This document shows, piece after piece, positions 21,030 to 49,606 of a DNA stretch of 64,000 bases. The stretch lies in the NCBI GenBank assembly GCA_035690485.1, contig DASSKL010000016.1, positions 1 through 64,000 on the forward strand, in the 5' to 3' direction. The notes beneath the pieces were generated by a model that did no database searches, was not told the origin of the DNA, and saw nothing but the letters and a program-made list of their open reading frames with translations. Position numbers and translations under genes: made by a program. How positions within the stretch are numbered: the stretch's first letter is position 1; every line of letters begins with the position of its first letter. Origin of the DNA: Mycobacteriales bacterium (lineage in GTDB: Bacteria > Actinomycetota > Actinomycetes > JAFAQI01 > DASSKL01).

Positions 21030-21374
21030 TCAGGCCGACTTGCGGTCGTGACCCCGCAGAACTGCCAGGCGCTCGGCGAGGACCTCCTCGAGGTCCTCGG
21101 TGGTACGCCGCTCCATGAGCATGTCCCAGTGCGTGCGCGGCGGCTTCGCGGGCTTCTCCTCGGGCAGGCTGCCGTCGACGAGGATCGCGATGGCCCCGCA
21201 CGCCTTGCACTCCCAGGTGGCCGGGATGTCGGCGTCGGCGGCGAGAGGCACGGTGAACTTGTGACCGCGTGGGCAGTCGAACGCCACGTCGCGACGCGGT
21301 GCCAGCTCGGTGTGCCGGTCGGTCTCGTAACTAATCGCACCGAGGCGGGTGCCTCGGAGAACTCGCTCGCCCAT
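21030..21374 (-). CDS. rbpA: RNA polymerase-binding protein RbpA
   Basis: Essential actinobacterial transcription factor that binds RNA polymerase and group 1/2 sigma factors and stabilises open complexes. The 114-aa sequence matches family length and landmarks: ERVLRGTRLGAISYETDR at the N terminus, a core domain, the basic linker KPPRTHWDMLMERR, and the sigma-interaction domain TTEDLEEVLAERLAVLRG. The core has CPRGH and CKAC, the zinc-binding set reported for the Streptomyces form and absent from the mycobacterial form. The ATG follows GGGAGG by 9 bp. A SigR-type promoter lies upstream. Confidence 0.96.
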   Translation of the reverse strand: MGERVLRGTRLGAISYETDRHTELAPRRDVAFDCPRGHKFTVPLAADADIPATWECKACGAIAILVDGSLPEEKPAKPPRTHWDMLMERRTTEDLEEVLAERLAVLRGHDRKSA

Positions 21375-21413
21375 GTTTGCTTGCCTCCCGGGCGTTGGAT
21401 GTCTCTTATCGGG

Positions 21414-21440
21414 AACGAGCCAACGCAGCAAAGGATTCCC
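21414..21440 (-). promoter_or_regulatory. SigR/SigH-type promoter of rbpA
   Basis: On the minus strand GGGAAT (21440-21435) is followed after exactly 18 bp by GTT (21416-21414), matching the thiol-stress sigma consensus GGAAT-N18-GTT. The transcript would begin near 21407, giving a leader of about 33 nt with an RBS. Streptomyces rbpA is known to be SigR dependent. Confidence 0.7.
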
Positions 21441-21511
21441 GTCATCGACCACGAGAACCCGCCTGCCGCAATGTCGGCTCGCGCCAACCGCAGTCTTGAG
21501 GAGGCCCATAG

Positions 21512-21982
21512 ATGAGCGCCCGCGGGTGGAAACAGGCTACCGCACCTGCCGTCGGAGTCGCGGACGCGGTGCGCGTCGCGGCGCGGCGTCGCGACCGGTC
21601 CGACGGGTTGGGCCGGCTCTCGTTGCAGGCGATCAGTGCGGTCCGGGCCGGGCTCGGCGGCGGGATGCTGCTGTTGCCGGAGCTGTCGGCGCAGCTGCTG
21701 GGTGCCGACGTCGACACCGCGCGCTCCGCGAACTGGCTGACCCGCATGGTCGGTGCCCGGGAGCTGGCACTCGGGGTCGTGGCCCTTGCCGGGGCCTACG
21801 GCGGCGGCGGCGGTGCTCGCGGCGCGTTCCTGGCACAGGTGGCCGCGGACTCCGGCGATGCGGCGACGTTGGCGCACGCCGCGGTGACCGGCCGGTTGCC
21901 GGCGCGCCCCGCAACGCTGATCGCCGCGTTCGCCGCGGCATCGGTGGCCGCCGAGCTGTATCTCGCGGCGCGGCACGCATGA
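21512..21982 (+). CDS. Small membrane protein, unknown function
   Basis: Hydrophobic protein of 156 aa with perhaps three or four membrane segments (for example LGGGMLLLPELSAQLL, ELALGVVALAGAYGGG and TLIAAFAAASVAAELYLA). It has a basic N terminus and an internal WLTRMVGARELALG motif resembling DUF4267-type proteins; I am not sure of the family. The ATG has GAGGAGG 7 bp upstream. It is divergent from rbpA and is the last gene before the dif-like site. Confidence 0.7.
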   Translation: MSARGWKQATAPAVGVADAVRVAARRRDRSDGLGRLSLQAISAVRAGLGGGMLLLPELSAQLLGADVDTARSANWLTRMVGARELALGVVALAGAYGGGGGARGAFLAQVAADSGDAATLAHAAVTGRLPARPATLIAAFAAASVAAELYLAARHA

Positions 21983-22039: not shown

Positions 22040-22067
22040 TGTGCCGATAATGGACATTATGTCAAGT
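22040..22067. other. dif: Putative dif chromosome dimer resolution site
   Basis: A 28-bp site of canonical XerCD layout: left arm TGTGCCGATAA (22040-22050), 6-bp core TGGACA, and right arm TTATGTCAAGT (22057-22067). Against the E. coli dif arms (GGTGCGCATAA and TTATGTTAAAT), 8 of 11 and 9 of 11 positions match. It lies in the intergenic space between two plus-strand genes, where gene orientation changes across the window. A XerD gene is at 47.6-48.5 kb. Dimer resolution and terminus location are inferred from this. Confidence 0.85.
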
Positions 22068-22090: not shown

Positions 22091-22585
22091 GTGACCGAAC
22101 GCCCGCTGGCGATCGTCGACATCGACGGGGTGGTCGCGGACGTGCGGCACCGGCTGCACCACGTCCGGGGCCGGCCGAAGGACTGGGATGCGTTCTTCGC
22201 CGCCATCCCGGACGACCCGCCGCTGGCCGACGGCATCGCGCTGGCGCGCGAGCTGGCGGCGGTCTACGACCTGGTCTACGTCACGGGTCGGCCCGAGCAG
22301 ACGCGCGGCGACACGCAGCGGTGGCTCGACCGGCACGGCCTTCCGCCCGGGCGGCTGGTGATGCGCCGCGCCCGCGATCGGCGCCCGGCGCGGCTGGCGA
22401 AGCCGGAGCTGGTCCGTGCGCTGGCGAAGGGGCGCCAGGTCGCCCTGGTCGTCGACGACGACGCCGAGGTCTGCGCCGCGATGCGCGGGGCGGGCTGGCC
22501 GGTCCGCCACGCCGACTGGATGGCGGAGGACGCGGCGAGTGGTGTGACCTTGCGAGCGGCCCAGGAAGGTCAAGGCCGGACGTAG
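22091..22585 (+). CDS. HAD-superfamily phosphatase, polynucleotide kinase-phosphatase type
   Basis: Protein of 164 aa with HAD motifs. Motif I is VDIDGVVADVRHRL (residues 9-22), motif II is YVTGRP (about 61), and motif IV is LVVDDDAEVC (about 118). The DIDG..AD.RHRL form resembles the 3'-phosphatase domain of T4 polynucleotide kinase-like proteins, so an end-healing nucleic-acid phosphatase is possible; the substrate is not established. The start is a leaderless GTG whose promoter overlaps the dif-like site. The stop codon lies in the first copy of a 13-bp tandem repeat. Confidence 0.8.
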   Translation: MTERPLAIVDIDGVVADVRHRLHHVRGRPKDWDAFFAAIPDDPPLADGIALARELAAVYDLVYVTGRPEQTRGDTQRWLDRHGLPPGRLVMRRARDRRPARLAKPELVRALAKGRQVALVVDDDAEVCAAMRGAGWPVRHADWMAEDAASGVTLRAAQEGQGRT

Positions 22586-47564: not shown

Positions 47565-48494
47565 TCACCCCAGCGCGCGCGGATGCGCCGCCGCGTAGAC
47601 CTCGCGCAACCGGTCGACGGTGACGAGCGTATAGACCTGCGTCGTCGTCACCGACGCGTGGCCGAGCAGCTCCTGCACGACGCGTACGTCCGCCCCGCCG
47701 TCGAGCAGGTGCGTGGCGAAGGAATGGCGCAGCATGTGCGGAGAGACCTCGGCGCGTACGCCGGCGCGCTGGGCCGCCGCGCGCAGCACGGTCCACGCGC
47801 TCTGCCGGGTCAGCCGACCGCCGCGGGCGTTGAGGAACAGCGCGCTGGTGCCCCGCCCCGCGGCGGCGAGCGCCGGGCGCCCCCGGACGAGGTAGCTGTC
47901 GACGGCCTTCCGGGCGTAGCTGCCGACGGGCACCATCCGGTCCTTACCGCCCTTGCCGTGCAGGACGACCGCCCCGGAGACCTGGTCGAGGTCGTCGACG
48001 GCCAGCCCGACCGCCTCGCTGATCCGCGCACCGGTGCCGTAGAGCAACTCGAGCAGCGCCCGGTCGCGCAACGCGCGTGGCGTCCCGTCGGCTCCCGCGG
48101 CGGCGAGGAGGGCCTCGACCTCGGTGACCGACAGCGCCTTGGGCAGCCGCCGCGGGGGCGGCGGCGGCTTGACCGCCACGGACACGTCGACCGGCACCAG
48201 GCCCTCGCGCAGGGCGAAGCGGTGCAGGCCGCGGACCGCGACGACGGCCCGTGCGGCCGAGCTCGGCCGCAAGGCGGTCCGGCCGTCGGTGCCGGAGCGC
48301 AGGGCGCCGAGGAACGCTGCCACGTCGTCCTCGCCGACGGCATCGAGCATCGTGATGCCCCGGGACTCGAGCACCTCGAGGTAGCGGCGCAGGTCCCGGC
48401 GGTAGGACGTGAGCGTGTTGGCAGCGAGGCCGCGCTCGACGGCGAGGTGGTCGAGATAGGCGGAGACGGCACGCTCGAGGGACGGGCCGGTCAG
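47565..48494 (-). CDS. xerD: Tyrosine recombinase XerD
   Basis: Site-specific recombinase that, with XerC, resolves chromosome dimers at dif. 309 aa. The N-terminal SAM-like DNA-binding domain ([34 protein letters not shown]) precedes the catalytic domain with Arg in [12 protein letters not shown], Lys in [40 protein letters not shown] and Tyr in TTTQVYT. No ATG, GTG or TTG can include the whole N-terminal domain. The best start is CTG 48494, which overlaps the ald stop as CTGA and has GAGG 7 bp upstream. A dif-like site is at 22.0 kb. Confidence 0.94.
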
Positions 48495-49606
48495 CGCAGC
48501 ACCTCGTCGAGTGCGACCACCGGCAGGCCGTGCGCCTCGGCCACGGGCGCGATCGTGAGTGTCCCGTCGACCGCGTTGACCCCGTTGGCGAGCGCCGGAT
48601 CGGCGCGCGCGGCGTCTCGCCAGCCCAGGGCCGCGATCCGCTCGGCGTAGGGCAGCGTGACGTTGGTCAGCGCGAACGTCGACGTGTTCGGCACGGCACC
48701 GGGCATGTTCGCGACGCAGTAGTAGACGCAGCCGTTGCGGACGAACGTCGGGTTGGAGTGCGTGGTCGGTCGCGACCCCTCGATGCAACCGCCCTGGTCG
48801 ACCGCGATGTCGACGAGGACGGCGCCGGGCTTCATCCGGGCCACGATGTCGTCGGTGACGAGCTTCGGTGCGCGGGCCCCGGGCACCAGCACGGCTCCGA
48901 TCACCAGGTCGGCGTCGAGGCAGGCCTTCTCGATCTCGTAGCGGTTGGACGCCACCGTCTGCACGTGGCCCTGGTAGATGCGGTCGGCCTCCCGCAGGCG
49001 GCCGATGTCCCGGTCGAGCAGCAGCACCTCGGCCTGCATGCCGACCGCGATGGCGGCGGCGTTCATGCCGGCGACACCCGCCCCGACGACGACAACCTTC
49101 GCGGCGTAGACGCCGGAAACACCACCCATGAGTACGCCGCGACCGCCGGCCTCGCGTTCGAGGCAGTGTGCGCCGACCTGCGGCGCCATCCGGCCGGCCA
49201 CCTCGGACATCGGCGCGAGCAGTGGCAGGGCGCCGTCGGCGACCTGCACGGTCTCGTAGGCGATGGCCGTGACCCCCGCGTCGAGCACGGCCTTCGTGCA
49301 CTCGGCCGAGGCGGCCAGGTGCAGGTAGGTGAAGAGCACCTGGCCGCGGCGCATGCGGTGGTACTCCGCCGGCACCGGCTCCTTGACCTTGAGCACGAGC
49401 TCGGCGTCGGCCCAGAGGTCGTCCGCCGACGCGACGACCCGTGCGCCGGCTGCGGCGAAGTCGCCGTCGGGCAGCGCGGACCCGGCACCGGCACCGGCCT
49501 CGACGGCCACTTCGTGGCCGGCGCGCGCCAGCTCGTGGACCCCGGCGGGGGTGATGGCGACGCGGTACTCGCTGTCCTTGACCTCCCGCGGCACGCCGAT
49601 CTTCAC
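48491..49606 (-). CDS. ald: Alanine dehydrogenase
   Basis: NAD-dependent interconversion of L-alanine and pyruvate plus ammonia. The GTG giving [22 protein letters not shown] yields 371 aa, the standard Ald length, and lies 7 bp after a TATGCT box, so a leaderless mRNA is likely; an ATG 12 bp upstream falls inside that box. Active-site residues: Lys in LVLKVKEP, His in TYLHLAAS. The NAD fold is [28 protein letters not shown]. The stop overlaps the xerD start. Confidence 0.95.

Follow-up and report, generated by a model that had tools for sequence, protein, structure and literature searches.

A canonical, ordinary actinobacterial dif site was found at positions 22040..22067 on the + strand of the window, the 64,000-nucleotide stretch of DNA that was analysed. 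With a probability of about 96%, we regard it as the chromosomal dif, at which XerC and XerD with FtsK would resolve chromosome dimers and which would mark the terminus region. Such sites are already known throughout the phylum. The full 28-mer, TGTGCCGATAATGGACATTATGTCAAGT, was confirmed in the sequence and consists of a left arm TGTGCCGATAA (22040..22050, + strand), a 6-bp central region TGGACA (22051..22056, + strand) and a right arm TTATGTCAAGT (22057..22067, + strand). The 11-6-11 geometry of XerCD sites described in the initial annotation is therefore present. The left arm can be called the XerC side and the right arm the XerD side only by analogy with E. coli dif. A hand count against E. 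coli dif gave 8/11 and 9/11 identical arm bases, which agrees with the 17 of 22 originally claimed. The layout is common to both sites as well, and the differences are CCG for CGC-type letters in the left arm and another central hexamer. The 28-mer was the sole match with at most three mismatches in the window. As had been predicted, the same search across the draft genome (3,132,725 bases in 102 contigs, 96.7% complete) also returned this single match. The identity of the site as dif is established by its sequence, its uniqueness and its conservation.

A survey of 66 single-chromosome Actinobacteria reports a predicted dif in every one of them (Kono et al. 2011, PMC3025954). The window site is identical at 24 of 28 positions to the dif of Frankia alni, CACGCCGATAATGCACATTATGTCAAGT, and has the same 11-6-11 layout (Kono et al. 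2011, PMC3025954). The four substitutions are at left-arm positions 1-3 and at position 14 in the centre. Like the Frankia alni site, the one described here is single copy and intergenic, and XerC-like, XerD and FtsK proteins are encoded in the genome.

The site lies between genes, as first reported, 57 bases past the stop of its left neighbour, an ORF of 156 amino acids (21512-21982, + strand), and 23 bases ahead of a HAD-family gene (22091..22585, + strand; Pfam HAD_PNKP, 5.9e-12), relatives of which adjoin dif in loci L134/L141, L140, L171 and L173. The gene rbpA was found on the - strand further to the left (Pfam RbpA, 2.2e-43); its longest ORF spans 21030..21509, and the true start is probably near 21374. 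The change of strand falls between rbpA and the 156-aa ORF, some 0.5 kb left of dif, and the HAD-family gene meets gcvP, on the - strand, about 0.9 kb to the right. The statement that the site is located where gene orientation changes thus holds within about 0.5-0.9 kb, but not at the site itself, where both adjoining genes are on the + strand. The - strand carries 29 of the 35 genes called to the right of dif (34.4 of 41.1 kb), and the 16 called genes to the left are mixed, with 9 on the + and 7 on the - strand. This pattern has the direction expected for a terminus at the site, but it is weak evidence because genes were called with a simple composition score, by which some of them, rbpA included, were missed.

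The site is conserved well beyond this genome. Its exact 22-base centre, CCGATAATGNACATTATGTCAA, is present in at least 120 public genome stretches, once per listed stretch, and nearly all of these are labelled Actinomycetota among the matches listed. One record labelled Tissierella, a Firmicute (L096), carries an actinobacterial dif beside genes that resemble the window's FtsR and OdhI-like genes; this record is probably mislabelled or contaminated. Since the search pattern used for the aligned public dif sites fixes 21 bases, invariance of those columns arises by construction and is no evidence of conservation. An independent line of evidence is an alignment of eight sequences from the order, with relatives found at up to three mismatches, in which the site remains recognisable while both flanks diverge, and GCCGATAA in the left arm and TATGTCA in the right arm are invariant. 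Matches to a 24-base dif pattern were obtained in 9 of 13 genomes from the order and in 234 of the 297 genomes sampled from the class, nearly always as a single match, and the reversed pattern, used as a control on the order and class genomes, gave no match. No member listed of one family with large genomes (f19) had a match to the 24-base pattern. This absence is expected if its chromosomes are linear, and the family possibly represents the linear-chromosome streptomycetes. Two or three dif-like matches were seen in G281 (C9, C12 and C38), G266, G177, G086, G271 and G242, where the extra matches may lie on plasmids or in integrated elements, or may be chance hits at three mismatches.

These data also bear on whether the likeness to dif could be accidental, or whether the sequence could be a regulatory palindrome upstream of the HAD-family gene, whose start codon is only 23 bases beyond the site. 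We consider this the least probable explanation, and hardly credible, because the same 22-base centre is kept across the phylum beside differing genes, and because 100 dinucleotide shuffles of the window produced no match to the 28-mer at up to three mismatches. It is only slightly more probable, and still very improbable, that the sequence is not the chromosomal dif but a Xer site through which a plasmid or integrated phage exploits XerCD. Sites of this kind do exist, and matching ones were present in six viral contigs and one Arthrobacter plasmid. The six viral contigs (L195-L200) may be phages using XerCD or misbinned host DNA. The match on the 99-kb Arthrobacter plasmid (NC_010494.1:56088-56114; 26/27 positions) has no annotated feature and is possibly a plasmid dimer-resolution site. 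A phage or plasmid origin of the window site is unsupported, however: the site has a single copy in a 96.7%-complete genome, it is surrounded by core genes (rbpA, gcvP, ftsR, odhI-like and xerD), it shows synteny with the dif of relatives, and no match was found in 50,697 phage records.

The recombination machinery expected for a chromosomal dif is encoded in the draft genome. The gene for the partner recombinase XerD, reported earlier to be in the same window, was located at 47565..48551 (start approximate) on the - strand, with a score of 340.3 bits against the cut-off of 329.6 bits of the NCBIfam XerD equivalog model TIGR02225. The tyrosine recombinase residues R, HxxR, H and Y are readable in its translation. 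Between 45916 and 50313, 25 kb from dif, xerD stands in a run with genes for a ParA-type ATPase and alanine dehydrogenase and a Nudix gene. A XerC-like protein is encoded on contig C2; XerC is its best model, at 314.7 bits, just below the equivalog cut-off of 335.15, and by our own reading of the neighbourhood its gene adjoins DprA-like and sigma-factor-like ORFs. An FtsK gamma domain is encoded on contig C19 (FtsK_gamma, 1.2e-24). The draft thus holds XerD, FtsK-gamma and a XerC candidate that scores below its cut-off. By established knowledge of these families, XerC and XerD would bind the two arms of dif, and the arrival of FtsK at dif at the division septum would lead them to recombine the two dif copies, by which chromosome dimers would be resolved. 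As dif, the site would also mark the terminus region of the chromosome.

The arrangement of dif and rbpA is shared with relatives. All 47 loci in which rbpA was matched (this genome, one duplicate and 45 others) have rbpA near dif on the opposite strand, and dif is always upstream of rbpA; in this genome the two are 0.5 kb apart. They are likewise on opposite strands in each of the 33 single-contig genomes, even at separations of 50-270 kb, and in family f26, where rbpA flanks dif on the other side, the strand relation is still kept. The constant relation between dif and the nearest rbpA probably reflects shared ancestry. It could mean that the polarity of dif is under selection beyond mere inheritance, although we regard this as unlikely.

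The distance between dif and dnaA is not measurable in this genome, because the draft is in 102 contigs and dnaA is on another one (C6, with a second, weaker match on C68). Complete relatives were used to place the terminus. Among 33 single-contig relatives, which represent eight families but are not independent since twelve come from one family, 32 have dif at 0.42-0.50 of the chromosome from dnaA. The proposal that the terminus lies in the window is in this way supported by homology: the terminus region is very probably within the window, because the site is about opposite dnaA in nearly all of these relatives and rbpA accompanies it across the phylum. The cumulative GC skew of the window showed no maximum or switch at 22 kb; it reaches its minimum 8.5 kb left of the site and its maximum 37 kb right of it, and the contig end at 69,040 limits the search for a switch beyond the window. 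The skew extreme anticipated within a few kb of 22 kb is thus absent, yet four of five control relatives, whose dif is about opposite dnaA, likewise lack a terminus-type switch near dif. Over an 80-kb stretch, only one of the five had a local skew maximum within 4 kb of dif, and therefore the skew test does not discriminate at this scale. Counts of the KOPS-like octamer GGGNAGGG in the contig are too small for a polarity switch to show.

A further explanation accepts the site as a genuine dif, but one shifted by rearrangement away from the usual meeting point of the replication forks, which would then lie well outside the window. The missing local GC-skew switch would fit such a shift, as would the one exceptional relative (G068), in which dif and dnaA are separated by 0.28 of the chromosome. 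Nevertheless, since dif lies roughly opposite dnaA in 32 of the 33 relatives and its synteny with rbpA is kept here, we judge a displaced dif to be unlikely, and the reading as a chromosomal dif in the terminus region is preferred.

The sequence is a further example of a well-described site and leaves the understanding of dif unchanged. For this actinomycete, whose genome is known only as pieces, dif provides a fixed landmark of the terminus region that helps to order the contigs.
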